DNA of 40,771 bases. It comes from a virus. Of the stretch, positions 1,940 to 11,760 are shown piece after piece. The stretch covers positions 1 through 40,771 of the IMG/VR virus record IMGVR_UViG_3300005842_000027. One strand, 5' to 3'. A model generated the notes under the pieces. That model was not told the origin of the DNA. It made no database searches and was given only the letters and a program-made list of their open reading frames with translations. The position numbers were made by a program, and so were the translations under genes. Each line of letters opens with the position of its first letter. Position 1 is the stretch's first letter.

Positions 1940-2851
1940 TCATCGCGCCGCTCCAGCCGCTTTTGCGTTTGGCGTCATTCTGCGCTCGATTACCTTACCG
2001 TCGTTGTACGCGCGTTGATACTTACGCCTCTTTCCTCCTGGAGGTCTGTAAGCCCCAAAGTCCGCCACTTCCCGGAGTCTGTTCAGCGCTTCAACTTCGA
2101 TCTGCCGCACCCGCTCACGAGTGATCCCAAAGTATTCTGCAATCTCTACCAGGCTATGCTCTCGGTCCGCCCGATTGAATCCAAAGCGCATCTTGAGCAC
2201 TTTCTCTTGCCGGGGACGAAGCCGTTTGAACGCCTGATAGACCACTGCCTCGCGACCGTCAACGATCAACGCCTCAAGCGCATCGATATGCTCGTCGGCC
2301 ATGATGTCCGCGAGCGTGGTACTGCAGGCGTCGGTGAGCGGCTGGTCGATCGACATCGTTACGTGGGCGCACTCTAACAGATCGCGCACCTGGTCAGAGG
2401 TTAGCTTGTGTCTGCGATTCGCCAGCACCGGCAGGCGCTCTGCCGCCTCCGCCTCGGTCGGCCACTGTCCGAGCTCGGTGAACATCTCATCGCGCGTTCG
2501 TAACAGTTCGTAGAGTTGAAATTGCTTGTTGACCGGTACTGAGATGGTGCGCGCCTGTTGCTGGATTCCTCGCCAGAGGTAATGCCGGATCCAGTACAGT
2601 GCGAACGTTGCGAACCGTGCGCCATTGCGCCAATCCCAGCGGTCAGCAGCCGTCATCAATCCGATGTTGGCCTCCTGAACCAGGTCCTCGAACTCTACGC
2701 CGCGCCCGGCAAACCTGCTCGCGCACCACTTCACCAGTCGCAAGTTTGATTCGACCAGCCGGTTGCGTGCGTCCATATCCCCGGCTTCGACGCGCTTGCC
2801 GAGTTCAATCTCTTCTTCTTGCGTGAGTCGGGGCGCGTACTGCTCTGTCAT
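1940..2851 (-). CDS. RpoD-like sigma70-family sigma factor
   Basis: 303 residues with the full order of a primary-type sigma lacking region 1.1: region 1.2/2.1 (LTQEEEIELGKRVEAGD; DARNRLVESNLRLV), 2.2-2.4 (EDLVQEANIGLMTAADRW; FATFALYWIRHYLWRGI), region 3, and 4.1-4.2 (LRPRQEKVLKMRFGF; GITRERVRQIEVEALNRLR). It should bind core RNA polymerase and recognise both -10 and -35 elements. ATG 2851 overlaps the stop of the preceding gene by 4 bases. The basic C-terminal tail (about 30 residues after region 4) is unusual. Inference: it redirects host polymerase to phage promoters. It is much closer to RpoD than to the divergent sigma factors of SPO1 or T4. Confidence 0.92.
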   Translation of the reverse strand: MTEQYAPRLTQEEEIELGKRVEAGDMDARNRLVESNLRLVKWCASRFAGRGVEFEDLVQEANIGLMTAADRWDWRNGARFATFALYWIRHYLWRGIQQQARTISVPVNKQFQLYELLRTRDEMFTELGQWPTEAEAAERLPVLANRRHKLTSDQVRDLLECAHVTMSIDQPLTDACSTTLADIMADEHIDALEALIVDGREAVVYQAFKRLRPRQEKVLKMRFGFNRADREHSLVEIAEYFGITRERVRQIEVEALNRLREVADFGAYRPPGGKRRKYQRAYNDGKVIERRMTPNAKAAGAAR

Positions 2852-3195
2852 CCCATCCCGTCCATCACGACTTTAGTCATGCAGGTCTTACCAGCCGTGT
2901 GTTGGGACAGCTCAACGGGGAAATCGGAGATTGCGAACCAGTCCGGCCAGTCGGGAATGGGCCAGTCGACGGCGCTCAGAAAGAACGCGCGCGCCGGACC
3001 GATCTTCGCGAAGTACTTCTGTCGGTTAGTCTCAAGCGTCGACCAGGTCGAGCCCTCACCCGGAAATCTGAGCACCGCCCCGTAAGTCTCCACCGTACCA
3101 TCAGGAAACAGATGAGACACGATCATCTGGTCACCGTCTTTAAGTGGACGGTCCACTGGCTTTGGCCGATGACGTTTGTGCCTCGGTCGCGACAA
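2848..3195 (-). CDS. protein co-translated with the sigma factor, unknown function
   Basis: 115 residues if started at TTG 3195; an internal ATG at residue 24 is an alternative. The first 20 residues are very basic (RPRHKRHRPKP), followed by beta-rich, Trp-rich sequence (DWPIPDWPDWF). No family recognised. ATGA overlap with the sigma gene shows the two are one operon, so an accessory role to the sigma factor (modulator or anti-sigma) is possible but not shown. The upstream region is an 11-bp repeat array that reaches the TTG codon. Confidence 0.6.
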   Translation of the reverse strand: MSRPRHKRHRPKPVDRPLKDGDQMIVSHLFPDGTVETYGAVLRFPGEGSTWSTLETNRQKYFAKIGPARAFFLSAVDWPIPDWPDWFAISDFPVELSQHTAGKTCMTKVVMDGMG

Positions 3196-3238
3196 GTCGA
3201 AACAGAGTCGAAAGCTACTCGAAAATAGTAGAAAATGG
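3195..3238. repeat. four 11-bp tandem repeats upstream of the sigma operon
   Basis: Units AGTCGAAACAG, AGTCGAAAGCT, ACTCGAAAATA and GTAGAAAATGG occupy 3195-3205, 3206-3216, 3217-3227 and 3228-3238. Each carries GAAA in the same register, so the motif appears once per helical turn on one DNA face. The array directly precedes the TTG start of the sigma operon and is likely an operator array or activator site. Confidence 0.65.
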
Positions 3239-3448
3239 GTTTGTTTACAGCAGTGGCTGACTTAACCGGTTTGCGGGCGGCCCGGGCAGGCCGTCGGCGT
3301 TCTCAGCGCGGACTATACAACTGACGCAAGGAGCGCGTTCATTTCCTCAGAAAGTTCAACGCTAACTACTTCCCGCGATAGCACCAACGAAGAGAATGAA
3401 TCCGGCTGCAAGCGTAGCACGGATTTGGGTGGCGTGTGTAAACAATCG
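3239..3448. other. non-coding stretch upstream of the sigma operon
   Basis: No convincing gene on either strand. It should contain the promoter for the leftward sigma operon, but no good -35/-10 pair could be picked out. GC-rich and AT-rich blocks alternate. Confidence 0.4.
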
Positions 3449-3484
3449 AAAAACGCCCGGCAGCTCCTCACGATCTGCCGGGCG
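3449..3484 (-). terminator. intrinsic terminator, leftward
   Basis: A perfect 10-bp stem (3454-3463 with 3475-3484, CGCCCGGCAG/CTGCCGGGCG) with an 11-base loop is followed on the minus strand by five U (3453-3449). This is a textbook Rho-independent terminator closing the minus-strand operon that starts near 6757 and insulating the sigma operon. Confidence 0.85.
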
Positions 3485-3534
3485 AAATTGGCTTACTGGT
3501 ATAGGGTTAAGGCCGCGATTCTACCATACACACG

Positions 3535-3576
3535 ACCGCCCGGCGCTGCTGAACCCAACGCCGGGCGGTTCTGTTT
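3535..3576 (+). terminator. strong hairpin, rightward terminator
   Basis: An 11-bp perfect stem (3535-3545 with 3559-3569, ACCGCCCGGCG/CGCCGGGCGGT) with a 13-base loop, followed on the plus strand by TTCTGTTT. No plus-strand gene obviously needs it, so it may block antisense transcripts entering from the left. Together with the terminator at 3449 it bounds a 50-base island that contains a minus-strand TGGTAGAAT (3518-3526). Confidence 0.7.
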
Positions 3577-3749
3577 GAGCCCGTCTTGTAGACGATGAAT
3601 GAAGCGGGTGATACCACGGGCCGGGCGATTGGCGTATACTCCGGTTCAGATGTTTCGATGGCTACTAAAGCTATTCGGTCGCAGGCGGGACTTCATGGAT
3701 ACGCCGGAATGGCGCGTGAAGCGGAATGCATTCTGGCACGAGCAACGCG

Positions 3750-3935
3750 TCAAGCACCTTCGGAAGTAGCCACCCGAACCTCATATACCGCGCCGCAGTC
3801 CTTACACTTGAAGCAGCCACGCGCCATCCCTTCGCAGTCATGCCACCAGAGGACTCCCGCGCACACGGGACAGTCCGGATTCTGATAGCACCACTCGGGC
3901 GGTTCGACGAGGGTGATGTGGGTTGGGTTAGGCAC
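3750..3935 (-). CDS. small zinc-ribbon-like protein
   Basis: 61 residues from GTG 3935. Several cysteines are spaced like a zinc ribbon: WCYQNPDCPVC early and CFKCKDCGAVYEV late, the second CxxC being followed by the beta hairpin typical of a zinc knuckle. It is the last gene of the leftward operon before the terminator at 3449-3484. Likely a DNA-, RNA- or protein-binding adaptor; exact role unknown. The 3577-3749 stretch after it holds no gene. Confidence 0.65.
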   Translation of the reverse strand: MPNPTHITLVEPPEWCYQNPDCPVCAGVLWWHDCEGMARGCFKCKDCGAVYEVRVATSEGA

Positions 3936-6029: not shown

Positions 6030-6289
6030 ATCAACCTCATCGCGTAAGTCACCGCGAATGGATCGTCGCTGCAGGCCCGGCGCGCCGCTTGCCGGTCGTC
6101 GTCAGTTGGCTCGAGCACGAATATCGAGATCAGAGCGTCAATGGTTTCGCGCCCCTCGATCGCAAGTTCCGCGTCGCCGGCTTCGCGCTCGAGGTCGCAC
6201 TGGTTGCAGCCCTCTATGAATCCCTCGTCCGCGTGGTCAATGTGCTGGTCGAAGTCGTCGCTGTCGTTCTGCTCAGTTGAATAGCTCAT
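6026..6289 (-). CDS. acidic hypothetical protein
   Basis: 87 residues with a very acidic N-terminus (NDSDDFDQHIDHADEGF) and a CNQC pair. Such acidic small proteins in phage early operons sometimes mimic DNA or bind host proteins, but nothing here proves that. It overlaps the genes on both sides by 4 bases. Confidence 0.6.
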   Translation of the reverse strand: MSYSTEQNDSDDFDQHIDHADEGFIEGCNQCDLEREAGDAELAIEGRETIDALISIFVLEPTDDDRQAARRACSDDPFAVTYAMRLM

Positions 6290-6576
6290 GCAACCTCCTT
6301 CATCCTCTTCAGGATTCGGAGCGCCCAGCTGAAGCCCGAGAAGTCGCCGGTTCGGTCGGCGTTTTCTGAGAGCAGAATCTTTGAGGCGGTGACTATCTCG
6401 ACGGGGTCAAGGCAGGTGTCGCAGGTCTTCGACTTGATCGGATCGTCGACGGCGCCGATGAAGGTTTCGTTGCACACCTGGCAGAGGCGGCGCACTTCCC
6501 AGGTCTGGAGTCTGCGGTTCTGGTTGTATGTGCGAGCGGCGCGTGCGAGTTGAAGCTCGGGAAGGGATTTTGACAT
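6286..6576 (-). CDS. zinc-ribbon hypothetical protein, first gene of the leftward early operon
   Basis: 96 residues, basic N-terminal half, then CQVCNETF and CDTCLDP separated by about 20 residues, forming a probable four-Cys zinc ribbon. GAGGAG precedes ATG 6576. First gene after promoter 6757-6785, with a leader of about 175 bases that contains hairpins and CACGTG repeats, so its translation or the operon's transcription may be regulated there. Confidence 0.7.
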   Translation of the reverse strand: MSKSLPELQLARAARTYNQNRRLQTWEVRRLCQVCNETFIGAVDDPIKSKTCDTCLDPVEIVTASKILLSENADRTGDFSGFSWALRILKRMKEVA

Positions 6577-6756
6577 TGTCGTGCTCCTCGTTCGAGAAGC
6601 ACGTGAGGTAGGTTGAAACTTTGGAGCGTCGCGAGTATTCTCGCTCGGCCGTTTAGTCTCACGTGGTAACTCACGTGCGGGTTATTCGGTAGGCTCGGGG
6701 AAGTTGCTCTAACAACTTTTCCGGGCCGCTTCGTTTGCGTCTCTGTCTACTCTCTA
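6577..6756. promoter_or_regulatory. long structured leader of the early operon
   Basis: Non-coding 5' region. It holds three CACGTG palindromes (about 6600, 6658 and 6670; the last two are in direct repeats of CTCACGTG) and an inverted repeat at about 6697-6725 (AAGTTG, 6-base loop, CAACTT, extended by GG/CC and G-U pairs). These could be repressor sites or an attenuator. No reading frame convinces. Confidence 0.45.
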
Positions 6757-6785
6757 ACTATACCGTGTGTTTATTAGTTTGTCTA
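6757..6785 (-). promoter_or_regulatory. leftward early promoter with operator
   Basis: On the minus strand TAGACA (6785-6780), 17 bases, TATAGT (6762-6757), each box one mismatch from the sigma70 consensus. The -35 box lies inside the 14-bp motif TAGACAAACTAATA (6785-6772), which recurs identically over the -35 of the promoter at 6993-7021. It reads the exonuclease operon. Confidence 0.75.
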
Positions 6786-6794
6786 CAGTTATCT

Positions 6795-6983
6795 TTATTT
6801 ATTTTTCTGAGGGGGCCTGCCTGTAGGTCGATTCGCTACCATCTTCAAGTGTCGCTCCTCGATTACCCAATCGCGGCCCGGCTTTGTGGCGGGTAGTCGA
6901 CCCGTGGTGATGAGTACTGTGACTCGGTTGGTGCTCACGCCTAGCCGCTCGGCGGCTTCTTTTACTGTCAGTGTCTTCGTCAT
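6795..6983 (-). CDS. excisionase/MerR-type HTH regulator
   Basis: 62 residues. LTVKEAAERLGVSTNRVTVLITTGRLPATKPGRDWVIEERHL is the standard HTH_17/Xis fold: helix-turn-helix, then a small wing, then a short helix. The C-terminus is basic. Start ATG 6983 sits only about 3 bases after the predicted transcription start of promoter 6993-7021. Identical 14-bp operator candidates flank the gene at both ends, so it likely represses or activates itself, the exonuclease operon and perhaps the divergent recombinase. It could equally be the excisionase for one of the two recombinases. Confidence 0.8.
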   Translation of the reverse strand: MTKTLTVKEAAERLGVSTNRVTVLITTGRLPATKPGRDWVIEERHLKMVANRPTGRPPQKNK

Positions 6984-6992
6984 AACTCTGCA

Positions 6993-7021
6993 AGTGTAGG
7001 CTATGCGTATTAGTTTGTCTA
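6993..7021 (-). promoter_or_regulatory. promoter of the HTH gene
   Basis: Minus strand TAGACA (7021-7016), 17-base spacer, TACACT (6998-6993). The -35 is embedded in TAGACAAACTAATA (7021-7008), the same motif as at 6785-6772. The leader before ATG 6983 would be about 3 bases. Confidence 0.7.
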
Positions 7022-7034
7022 GCGTATTAGTTTG
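7005..7034. repeat. 17-bp-spaced operator repeats
   Basis: GCGTATTAGTTTG occurs at 7005-7017 and 7022-7034; a third related copy (TATTAGTTTGTCTA) is at 6772-6785, 236 bp away. The repeats overlap both the minus promoter 6993-7021 and the plus promoter 7015-7044. Confidence 0.75.
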
Positions 7035-7044
7035 GTGGTATGCT
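7015..7044 (+). promoter_or_regulatory. possible promoter of the XerD-like gene
   Basis: TTGTCT at 7015-7020, 18-base spacer, TATGCT at 7039-7044. It overlaps the operator repeats and faces away from the HTH promoter, so the two would compete or be co-regulated. Confidence 0.45.
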
Positions 7045-7082
7045 CTGCGCCCGCGAAAGGGAACACATGGAGGGACACAATC

Positions 7083-7961
7083 ATGGTAGATATCGAAAAG
7101 AACTTCTTGAACTATCTACGAGTCGAGAGGGGTCTGTCTTCGAATACTCTCACGGGCTATGCCCTCGACTTGAAGAAACTCCGCGACTACGCCGACGGCA
7201 TCGGAAAGGATCTACCGGCCCTCGAGCAGGCCGACCTACAGCATTTTATCCAGGTGCTCGGCGTCTCCGGCCTGAACCCAAGGACCGTAAACAGAGCGCT
7301 TGCCGTGGTCCGAAATCTATACAGGTTTCTCCAACTGGACGGTCAGTTGAAACGTGACCCGAGCGTAAACATTGGAAGCCTGCAAACGGACCAGCCGCTC
7401 CCGAAATTTCTGGCAACCGAAGAAGTTGAAATGCTGCTTTGTGCTCCCGACACCTCGACGGAGATTGGAGTGCGCGACAGGGTAATGCTCGAGGTTCTTT
7501 ATGCTACCGGGCTGCGGGTTTCAGAGTTGGTATCTTTGAAAGTTAGCGACTTGAACGTTGATGCCGGCTTTCTTACGACGGTCGGGAAGGGGTCGAAGGA
7601 GCGATCAGTTCCGATAGGGAAGAGCGCGGTGACATGGGTGGATCACTACATGGGAGCGCGGCGCGTGTTGCTGAACGGTAAGAGCAGCCGTCTGTTGTTC
7701 GTCGGCGCGGATGGGGCGCCGCTCACCAGGCAGGGATTTTGGAAGCTGATCGTGGCCTATGGCGAGAAGGCCAAAATCGGACACATCACGCCTCACATAC
7801 TCAGACACAGCTTTGCTACTCATCTCCTCGCAAACGGCGCGGACCTTCGATCGGTTCAGATGATGCTTGGACATGCCAGTATCGGCACGACGCAGATTTA
7901 TGCCCACGTGACCAACGAAAAACTATTCCAGGACTATAAGAAATTCCACCCGCGCGCCTGA
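7083..7961 (+). CDS. XerC/XerD-type tyrosine recombinase
   Basis: 292 residues from ATG 7083 (GGAGGG 8 bases upstream; the frame is open a little further upstream but that start is weaker). N-terminal SAM-like domain, then the catalytic domain with Arg 145 (ATGLRVSEL), the beta-hairpin Lys (GKGSKER, about 169-172), His 238 and Arg 241 (HILRHSFATHL), His 264 (LGHASIG) and nucleophile Tyr 273 (QIYAHV). The C-terminus YKKFHPRA is typical of chromosomal XerD. It may have been captured from a host, and could integrate the phage at a dif site or resolve multimers. A conventional phage integrase lies 432 bases away, convergent to it. Confidence 0.92.
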   Translation: MVDIEKNFLNYLRVERGLSSNTLTGYALDLKKLRDYADGIGKDLPALEQADLQHFIQVLGVSGLNPRTVNRALAVVRNLYRFLQLDGQLKRDPSVNIGSLQTDQPLPKFLATEEVEMLLCAPDTSTEIGVRDRVMLEVLYATGLRVSELVSLKVSDLNVDAGFLTTVGKGSKERSVPIGKSAVTWVDHYMGARRVLLNGKSSRLLFVGADGAPLTRQGFWKLIVAYGEKAKIGHITPHILRHSFATHLLANGADLRSVQMMLGHASIGTTQIYAHVTNEKLFQDYKKFHPRA

Positions 7962-8392: not shown

Positions 8393-9829
8393 TTATGTTT
8401 TGCGTGGAGTGCTTTCTATAGCTTCGTTTGTGTCCAAATTGGACTCGGATGGGTCGCGCTTTGCGAGGCCCGCCATCGCTTTCGCGAGTGACTTTGCCGT
8501 TGCGTGCGAGTAAACACGAAGCGTGGTTGCCGGGTTCTTGTGGCCGGCGATCGCCATCACGGTTGCCAGGTCCGCTCCGTTCTGAAGAAGCCTGGTGATT
8601 ACCGTATGCCGGCAGTCATGAAACACGAGGCCGCCGGCTGTGTCGCGGCCGTACGGGATGTCTCGAGCCCGGCATGCTTCTCCGAGTATCCGATCGACGA
8701 TCGTAATGCGAGAGTCGATCGTCCCTCCACAATCGAAGATCCAATCTGACTTCGATCGACACTGCGCCAGAATCCGCGCCGACTCCGCATTCAGCGGAAT
8801 GGTTCGATCGTCGCCGCCCTTGATGCCTCGAGCAACCAGCCATCCCCATTCGTAGCCGGGCGCCCGTCCGAGATGCACGTCGCGCTTCTTGAGGTTGATC
8901 AACTCACGGCAACGCATGCCGGTTTGCAACGCCATCTCAAAAACGTCGGCGATGACTTCCCTCGTGCGCCCGCCGTCCGTGCGCTTCGTCGGGTTCGATC
9001 GAAGTTCTGCAAGTATCGCGGCTTCCTCTTCTCGAGTGATAAGGCGGTTGCGATGCCGGCCCGTTGATCGCGCGCCTTCCGGCTGCTTCGGTGGGCGCCA
9101 CCCGGCCAGGTCCGGCATGTTCTCGGCGGCGTAAACCAGCGCGTATCGGATCAGCACCAGGTTGTTTCGAATCGTCGGCGGTGAGGCTTTCTCCCGCGCG
9201 CGACTGCGGACCAGCTCTGCCAGGTCTGAGGTCTGCAGCTCCTTAACCGGACGCGAAAGGGCCACAACTTTTGCAAGCAACTCAAAGCTGTACTCATTCG
9301 AGCGGATGTATGGCTTGGACCGCCCGCGGCTTCGAAGTGTCCGGAGCCAGAGGTCGCGCACCTGGGCGATCGTCACCCGGGATTCGTCGGCTGGAAACTT
9401 GTAGACGCCGCGGCGCTGGTCGGTTCGCAGTGAATCGATCGCGTCCTGGCATTCCTTGATCGTTGGAAAGTAGAGGCCTCGAGGAGTCCGGACGCGCCGG
9501 CCGTCGAGTCGGATGTCATAGACGTAGTACCAACCAGGCTGGGGCCGCTCGCGCCAGGCTTTGTAGATGCCGGCGCGGATCTTCTTTCGCGCGGGCTTGT
9601 CGGTCATCTGCCCTTTCCCGCTGCCTTGGTCAATCCACCGGTCCCTGGCTTGTCCTTGTCGATTTAACAACCCATCGGCCTGGTAACAACTTATGCCTCG
9701 CCAGAGCAGCAGGGTTACTACTTTACTGAGCGAGCGTTTTTCGATTTCGCCAATTTCATTGAGGACGGCGCGCAGGCTGTCCGCCATTCGAAAGGTAAAA
9801 TTTGACTCAGGCTCTTTTTCTTGGGCCAT
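8393..9829 (-). CDS. int: phage tyrosine integrase with N-terminal RHH-like extension
   Basis: 478 residues from ATG 9829. Residues 11-50 (NFTFRMADSL..., RSLSKVVTLLLWRGI) resemble a ribbon-helix-helix DNA-binding domain. A second good start, ATG 9607 (residue 75, AAAGGG upstream), gives a 404-residue standard integrase. The catalytic domain carries Arg 306 (TGMRCRELI), Lys 337, His 404/Arg 407 (HDCRH), His 430 (AGHKNPATT) and Tyr 440 (RVYSHAT). It should integrate and excise the prophage. The upstream region is divergent with an RHH gene. Either a true fusion or two in-frame products. Confidence 0.9.
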   Translation of the reverse strand: MAQEKEPESNFTFRMADSLRAVLNEIGEIEKRSLSKVVTLLLWRGISCYQADGLLNRQGQARDRWIDQGSGKGQMTDKPARKKIRAGIYKAWRERPQPGWYYVYDIRLDGRRVRTPRGLYFPTIKECQDAIDSLRTDQRRGVYKFPADESRVTIAQVRDLWLRTLRSRGRSKPYIRSNEYSFELLAKVVALSRPVKELQTSDLAELVRSRAREKASPPTIRNNLVLIRYALVYAAENMPDLAGWRPPKQPEGARSTGRHRNRLITREEEAAILAELRSNPTKRTDGGRTREVIADVFEMALQTGMRCRELINLKKRDVHLGRAPGYEWGWLVARGIKGGDDRTIPLNAESARILAQCRSKSDWIFDCGGTIDSRITIVDRILGEACRARDIPYGRDTAGGLVFHDCRHTVITRLLQNGADLATVMAIAGHKNPATTLRVYSHATAKSLAKAMAGLAKRDPSESNLDTNEAIESTPRKT

Positions 9830-10133: not shown

Positions 10134-10376
10134 ATGAGAAAGCCCAGACCAGAACCCGAACCTGAATTCTGGACACCGCAGCAAGCCGCTGCGTACCTAG
10201 GGCTTTCCGCGTCGGCGCTCTATCACGGCGAGGCCGGCACTAATGAGATTCCGCGTCCGAGGATGGGGAGTGCGGTTCGTTTCAAGAAATCGGATGTAAT
10301 CGCGTTCGGTGAGAGAATGCATGCTCGAGCCGCGGCGCGACTTGTCGGACGCCGGCGGTTTCCGCTGGCGGGTTGA
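10134..10376 (+). CDS. HTH_17 / excisionase-like DNA-binding protein
   Basis: 80 residues. FWTPQQAAAYLGLSASALYH is the recognition helix-turn-helix, and PRPRMGSAVRFKKSDVIAF is the wing and third helix of the AlpA/Xis fold. The N-terminus is proline-rich (RPEPEPE) and the C-terminus basic. AGGGTG precedes ATG 10134. Located just after the RHH gene and near the integrase, it is the better candidate for the integrase's excisionase, with the 6795 protein as the alternative. Confidence 0.78.
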   Translation: MRKPRPEPEPEFWTPQQAAAYLGLSASALYHGEAGTNEIPRPRMGSAVRFKKSDVIAFGERMHARAAARLVGRRRFPLAG

Positions 10377-10732: not shown

Positions 10733-11638
10733 ATGGCCCGAAAGAGGATGATGCACCCGGAAGTATGGTCGGACCCGAGGAATAGTCAGCTTGATCACAC
10801 ACAGCGGTTGATCGTGCTGGGACTCAAGAACTACAGCGACGATGATGGCAGGTTCCGAAATCATCCGGCGTTGATCAGGTCCGCGATCTTCCCTTTCGAT
10901 GATATTCCTCTCGCGAAGATATCAGAGAGCATGGCCCTGCTCGGCACTCTCGGCTTTGTTGAATTGTGGAGTGCAGGCGGCGAAGACTTTGGCTTTATCG
11001 TCGGCTGGTACGACGAGCAGAAAGTTGCCTACCCCACACCGTCGGTTCTTCCGGTCGCCCCTTCCCTTTTGCTGGACTCAACCCCAGCAGCAATGGCGCG
11101 AGGTTCCGCCCTGCGCGACGCTGGATTGAGAATATCAGAGCCAATCCAGCCCAACTTGTTAGAGATGCCCTTGGCGCGAGAGGCTGCAACGCCCCACGCG
11201 GTAACGCCGGGTGTCGCCCCGGAGAACCCATCCCCAACCCAGTTCAGATCGTATTGGACGCTCACCGATGACGATCTAGGCGGCTTCCAGGCCGTCGATG
11301 TGCGCAACGCGTATCTACGCCTTACGGGGATGACGCCGACTAAGAAGGACCGGGACCTGATAGAGGTGACCGGGATCGACTACGGCTTTAGCTCGCGCAC
11401 ACTCATCGCAATTATGGAGGTGATCAAGGCTCGCGCCGGCGATCGGCGAATTCAGTCCTTTAACTATTTCCGGACCTCGATCACTGAACTGTGGAAACGT
11501 TGTATCGATGCCGAGCAAAACGCGGCGAGGTTGGCGACCGGAGGCAGCGAATCACAGCAGCGGACCATACTTCTCGGAGCAGTAAGGCGAGAAATGGGCG
11601 CATGGGTTCGCGGTAACTCCAATCAAAAGTATGGGTAA
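10733..11638 (+). CDS. phage replication initiator protein
   Basis: 301 residues. The N-terminal 100 residues (ARKRMMHPEVWSDPRN, QRLIVLGLKNYSDDDGRFRNHPALIRSAIFPFDD) are the winged-helix start seen in many phage replication proteins of the DnaD/O type. A proline-rich linker around 110-180 is followed by a helical C-terminal part (YGFSSRTLIAIMEVIKAR, SFNYFRTSITELWK) that would contact the helicase loader or helicase. Eleven-bp iterons begin 8 bases after its stop, as expected for an initiator beside its own origin. No helicase or primase gene is seen, so host machinery is presumably recruited. Confidence 0.78.
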   Translation: MARKRMMHPEVWSDPRNSQLDHTQRLIVLGLKNYSDDDGRFRNHPALIRSAIFPFDDIPLAKISESMALLGTLGFVELWSAGGEDFGFIVGWYDEQKVAYPTPSVLPVAPSLLLDSTPAAMARGSALRDAGLRISEPIQPNLLEMPLAREAATPHAVTPGVAPENPSPTQFRSYWTLTDDDLGGFQAVDVRNAYLRLTGMTPTKKDRDLIEVTGIDYGFSSRTLIAIMEVIKARAGDRRIQSFNYFRTSITELWKRCIDAEQNAARLATGGSESQQRTILLGAVRREMGAWVRGNSNQKYG

Positions 11639-11645
11639 CGATTTC

Positions 11646-11703
11646 TCATGAATGACTCATGAATGACTCATGAATCATTCATGAGAAATTCATGAGTCAT
11701 TCA
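11646..11703. repeat. iteron array, probable replication origin
   Basis: TCATGA starts at 11646, 11657, 11668, 11679 and 11690, exactly every 11 bp; TCACC at 11701 looks like a decayed sixth unit. Within it, 11660-11675 (TGAATGACTCATGAAT) and 11688-11703 are perfect inverted repeats of 16 bp. The array directly follows the initiator gene. Confidence 0.75.
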
Positions 11704-11708
11704 CCAGT

Positions 11709-11760
11709 AGATCAGATCAGTCTAAGTCAGATCAGATCAGTTTAGTTTAAGTCAGATCAG
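11709..11760. repeat. AGATCAG repeats with five GATC sites
   Basis: GATC occurs at 11710, 11715, 11730, 11735 and 11755 within repeats of AGATCAG and AAGTCAGATCAG. It directly adjoins the iterons, so a second initiator site or methylation-sensitive origin element is likely. An AT-rich segment follows at about 11820-11850. Confidence 0.65.

Follow-up and report, generated by a model that had tools for sequence, protein, structure and literature searches.

A putative operator shared by the promoters of a small HTH_17 gene and a phage exonuclease operon, and its change from phage to phage

The promoter of a small HTH gene in this phage and the promoter of the recombination operon that follows it carry the same short sequence, which raises the question of whether the HTH protein controls both. 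The window analyzed here is a 40.8-kb IMG/VR virus record, a phage contig with portal and terminase genes. Two contigs, with 100% and 99.2% identity to the window, represent the same phage or nearly so; all differences in the 99.2% contig fall at 2787-3879, outside the HTH and operator region. A scan with the portal protein returned one near-identical contig and nothing else, and XerD homologues in viral and bacterial genomes were limited to near-identical contigs and distant XerDs (40 to 48% identity). The features of the locus are listed in Table 1.

Table 1. Features of the HTH, exonuclease operon and XerD region, in window coordinates
Feature	Position	Strand	Basis
YqaJ-type recombination exonuclease, 236 aa	5319..6029	-	PF09588 E=8e-23; PHROG exonuclease
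Second operon gene, 87 aa	6026..6289	-	Counterpart in L014 and L015
First exonuclease-operon gene, 96 aa, conserved cysteines	6286..6576	-	47% identical in L014 and L015
Structured 5' leader RNA, ~175 nt, transcribed from P2	6577..6752	-	z=-5.86; common structure of three phages pairs 97% of cells
Hairpin pairing Shine-Dalgarno (AGGAG) of first operon gene	6580..6603	-	Predicted SD unpaired probability <0.01
Possible anti-sequester arm GCACGTGAG	6667..6678	-	Inverted repeat, complementary to RBS hairpin 5' side (6599-6610)
P2 -10 box TATAGT (exonuclease operon)	6757..6762	-	Promoter scan
Operator copy in P2 (exonuclease operon promoter)	6772..6785	-	Exact 14-mer; first six bases = -35
HTH_17 winged-helix protein, 62 residues, probable binder	6795..6983	-	Pfam HTH_17 E=5e-11; homologues in L014, L015
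P1 -10 box TACACT (HTH gene)	6993..6998	-	Sequence; promoter scan
Operator copy in P1 (HTH gene promoter)	7008..7021	-	Exact 14-mer; first six bases = -35; TAGACA-17-TACACT
Partial tandem operator copy, 13-mer GCGTATTAGTTTG	7022..7034	-	Repeat of 7005-7017; inside divergent XerD promoter
Extended -10 TGGTATGCT, candidate divergent XerD promoter	7036..7044	+	Read from sequence; inferred
XerD-like tyrosine recombinase, divergent from HTH gene	7083..7961	+	PF00589 E=1.5e-49, PF02899

The preliminary description had placed the 14-mer TAGACAAACTAATA identically on the minus strand at 6785-6772 and 7021-7008, and this was confirmed, with exactly two copies present. No further copy was found in the whole 40.8 kb at up to three mismatches, and a phage-wide regulon marked by TAGACAAACTAATA was rejected on this ground. 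Each 14-mer opens with the -35 box TAGACA, 17 bp from TATAGT or TACACT, as had been proposed. The pattern TNGACA-N17-TANANT occurs in the window only at P1 and P2, compared with 0.08 expected occurrences, and the match between the P1 and P2 promoter regions was reached in none of 400 Markov shuffles. A consensus promoter scan alone was unconvincing (3 sites in 6.5 kb versus 2.5 expected). Repeats of 14 bases are not as such rare in the window, which holds 155 pairs, 30 of them within 400 bp; most belong to a small number of other repeat tracts. P2 is located directly 3' of the HTH stop codon and reads the leader and then the 96-, 87- and 236-aa (YqaJ) genes. Judging from the position of its -10 box, P1 would initiate transcription about 3 nt upstream of the HTH ATG (6983), and the mRNA would thus be nearly leaderless.

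A third copy had been described at 7022-7034, overlapping the divergent recombinase promoter. This sequence does fall within the likely XerD promoter, but it is a partial 13-mer and not the 14-mer. The 13-mer and the identical positions 7005-7017 form a tandem repeat whose period is 17 bp, an arrangement reached in none of 300 shuffles. Apart from TATTAGTTTG, just one 10-mer in the window has at least three copies no more than 300 bp apart. A 10-bp core, CAAACTAATA, is common to all three copies. Only the first two bases of the core fall within the -35 box; most of it occupies the spacer immediately downstream. The XerD-like gene starts at 7083, and relative to its candidate promoter the tandem core copies span about -43 to -17.

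Because the two TAGACAAACTAATA copies are within 37-nt blocks that are 73% alike, both promoter boxes included, part of the similarity between P1 and P2 could be due to duplication of a whole promoter. The shared element might accordingly be a duplicated promoter without an operator, or a promoter class for another factor such as the sigma-70 factor that the phage itself encodes (regions 1.2, 2, 3 and 4, at 1940-2851). We consider this quite unlikely. The third core copy is found upstream of the -35 box of P1 and outside any promoter box, indicating that more than a promoter box is repeated here, and the core extends into the spacer, which is not normally contacted by sigma. Moreover, the window has no further occurrence of the pattern, unlike a sigma regulon, and the relatives described below carry different private motifs.

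The HTH protein passed the curated cutoff of HTH_17 (PF12728) with 43.1 bits versus 27, and its AlphaFold model (pLDDT 81) contains wHTH secondary structure only. In the structure comparison, the closest folds were Pukovnik Xis, BldC, RacA and RdfS. BldC (6ama_A) was at the top in VIA-align (Z 7.9, rmsd 2.3, 52 aligned), tied with Pukovnik Xis. The Foldseek E-values were modest, 0.013 at best, which is expected for a protein of only 62 residues. BldC (68 residues) is likewise a stand-alone wHTH protein without a coiled coil or an effector domain, and its sites are also direct repeats in promoters. BldC protomers bind 9-bp direct repeats head to tail (PMC5859096), whereas the tandem period here is 17 bp, not about 9 bp. 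A homologue of the HTH protein in another phage (L119) differs further from BldC in having an inverted repeat.

The best solved sequence relative was Pukovnik Xis (4j2n, E=1.1e-6 by profile), an HTH_17-type excisionase that, like RdfS, has the same Xis-type winged helix as the HTH protein, and the PHROG matches of the HTH protein are mostly excisionases. These matches, and the divergent position of the HTH gene to a tyrosine recombinase in the window, would suit a protein that is primarily the excisionase (RDF) of the XerD-like recombinase; the protein's sites by an attachment region would then be the tandem copies at 7005-7034, and promoter control a side effect. RdfS, a wHTH protein of the same fold, combines both roles, binding its own promoter and the promoter of another gene besides the attachment site (PMC11963761). 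RdfS does so without a consensus motif, in contrast to the exact repeats in the window. An excisionase as the primary role nevertheless appears unlikely. The exact copy at P2, 236 bp from the P1 copy, has no apparent role in recombination, and of the two tyrosine recombinases, the second, larger one (8393-9829, convergent with the XerD-like gene) is more typical of a phage integrase. Furthermore, the HTH gene is adjacent to a recombinase only in the window; in the related loci L014 and L015 it is again linked to the exonuclease operon, without a recombinase or XerD gene seen beside it on these short contigs.

L014 and L015 encode YqaJ proteins 70 to 73% identical to that of the window and keep the order HTH gene, leader, exonuclease operon; in L014, an FHA gene is located between the promoter and the HTH gene. 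Apart from the window's own relatives and the L014 and L015 loci, none of about 80 other YqaJ loci surveyed had an HTH gene near YqaJ. Neither L014 nor L015 contains the window 14-mer, and among other phages the window motif was found in the near-identical contigs only. In L015, the two corresponding promoters have a different 14-bp motif in common, AAAGTATCGCG[G/C]TA (none of 400 shuffles), and the position of P2 is kept as TTGCTA-17-TACAGT. The stretch of L015 directly before the HTH gene, used as a negative control, gave no motif match (P=0.99). In L014, a weaker motif, ATTCGTGG, is common to the same two promoters in inverted orientation (P=0.01). A putative operator that is shared by the regulator's own promoter and the target promoter, and that overlaps the core promoter, was thus found in the window and in L015. 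These relatives support the earlier proposal of a switch controlling the HTH gene and the exonuclease operon, in that the genes remain together and the promoter pair again shares a motif, albeit another one. The proposed control of the XerD-like gene applies to the window only: the divergent gene in L015, and apparently also in L014, where it is cut off at the contig end, encodes a two-domain HTH_17 regulator and not a recombinase.

These two-domain proteins, or the second small HTH_17 protein of the window (10134-10376, upstream of a possible replication gene), might bind the motif instead of the 62-residue protein. Both candidates do exist, and a two-domain regulator encoded divergently from an early operon would make a plausible repressor. 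However, of the regulators only the small HTH protein was seen next to all three operons, and no copy of the motif lies near 10134, which makes binding by another phage regulator very improbable. Two further clusters were observed in these sequences. Within 2.2 kb, L015:1-2168 encodes a two-domain HTH_17 protein and three small HTH_17 proteins whose tails are of the GRP type; one of these genes follows a T5orf172 nuclease-like gene. In the window, direct and inverted repeats of the TCATGAATGA type are clustered at 11641-11760, together with three TCAGATCAGT repeats at a spacing of 20 bp. This cluster lies directly 3' of the gene at 10733-11638 and is a possible replication origin with iterons.

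Two HTH homologues from other phages and other loci, L119 and L120, are 60 to 63% identical to the HTH protein. The L119 gene has an inverted repeat, AAGTCTAACGC/GCGTTAGACTT, in its own promoter (none of 300 shuffles), and the L120 gene has a direct repeat, TCATAGGGTT (uncorrected P=0.02). In L119, a copy of the motif with one mismatch overlaps the -10 box of a second promoter-like site; about 0.6 such matches are estimated to arise by chance in that contig. A common 17-bp periodicity across the homologues was considered and rejected, as the period is 17 bp in the window and 34 bp in L120 but 50 bp in L119. The start of the predicted recognition helix varies across the phages (STNR, GVSR, SARR).

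Between L014 and L015, the leader and the first operon gene are 94% identical, close identity beginning at the leader start, whereas the HTH genes are 57% identical and the operators differ. This indicates that the HTH gene and its operators change together, and that regulator and operators behave as one exchangeable module and the leader and first operon gene as another. The expectation that the motif would be conserved wherever the protein is therefore fails when taken literally, each relative having its own motif, and holds only as joint turnover of motif and protein. At the sequence level, operators that differ by phage beside a retained HTH gene fit a regulator that acts locally on its own gene and has a different operator in each phage.

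The 62-residue HTH_17 protein is thus probably a local autorepressor that would bind the CAAACTAATA core at P1, P2 and the XerD promoter. The analysis itself shows the sites, how they are aligned with the predicted promoters, the predicted fold and the turnover of the operators with the HTH gene. Most likely, the HTH protein shuts off itself and the recombination operon. RdfS, which binds at its own and at one other promoter, offers a published precedent (PMC11963761). The promoters would fire early in infection or on induction. As the HTH protein accumulates, it would bind the core just downstream of, and overlapping, the -35 boxes of P1 and P2, and the tandem copy at the XerD promoter, probably occupying the tandem P1/XerD site first and the single P2 site later. 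Bound protein would block RNA polymerase at all three promoters, and the recombination genes would be shut down as the protein builds up. Occlusion is favored by the overlap of the copies with core promoter elements and by spacers that, at 17 bp, are already of optimal length; with such spacers, MerR-like activation by DNA untwisting would not be needed.

The leader transcribed from P2 is predicted to fold into a stem-closed multiloop with three arms, followed by the RBS hairpin. The GGAG in L014 and L015 has an unpaired probability of <0.01, as in the window. Compared with shuffled sequence, folding was strong in the window (z=-5.86) and moderate in L015 and L014 (z about -2.5). Between the window and L015, no part of the locus is better conserved than the leader, with 74% identity versus 65% for the HTH gene, 59% for the first operon gene and 65% for YqaJ. 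It is unlikely to be a coding stretch, since single-base gaps between the phages shift the frame. A common structure of the three phages pairs 97% of cells compared with at most 43% when slid, and one arm contains two compensated pairs. Covariation among these three sequences was not significant (59 of 500 shuffles reached the observed score). Between P2 and the leader, L014 has an intrinsic-terminator-like hairpin, GAAGCCCAGGCTTCTTTTT (L014:1090-1230), unlike the window and L015.

The leader was not found beyond these phages. Rfam 15 gave no covariance-model match over 6500-7100 at E values up to 5, DNA pattern scans returned the known three phages plus chance matches only, and blastn in phages and plasmids returned nothing real. 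The 396 genomes searched from the phylum of a Bryobacterales MAG yielded nothing but fragments of 21 to 32 bases, and a covariance model of the leader run over 88 loci detected the same three phages only, plus a palindrome echo in L014.

The conserved fold, the RBS hairpin and a possible competing anti-sequester arm resemble translation-attenuating leader RNAs (riboswitch-like 5' UTRs), from which this leader differs in having no Rfam match and in being seen in three phages only. A 9-base element upstream could pair with the 5' side of the RBS hairpin instead, although this alternative fold is weaker by 3.3 kcal/mol in the window and by 6 to 7 kcal/mol in L014 and L015. It is possible, but doubtful, that the P2 leader is a new class of phage regulatory RNA, in which the last hairpin hides the RBS of the exonuclease operon and the competing arm GCACGUGAG opens it. 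The stretch may also have a role at the DNA level, as an origin, a packaging site or a recombination site. If the leader does act as a switch, the operon would be controlled at two levels, through a private operator that evolves and through a conserved RNA switch, and the leader would represent an undescribed form of translational control of phage recombination genes.

The operator arrangement is an ordinary kind of switch. Its regulator and sites change together phage by phage while the promoters stay put, which makes the locus suitable for tests of how wHTH specificity evolves.
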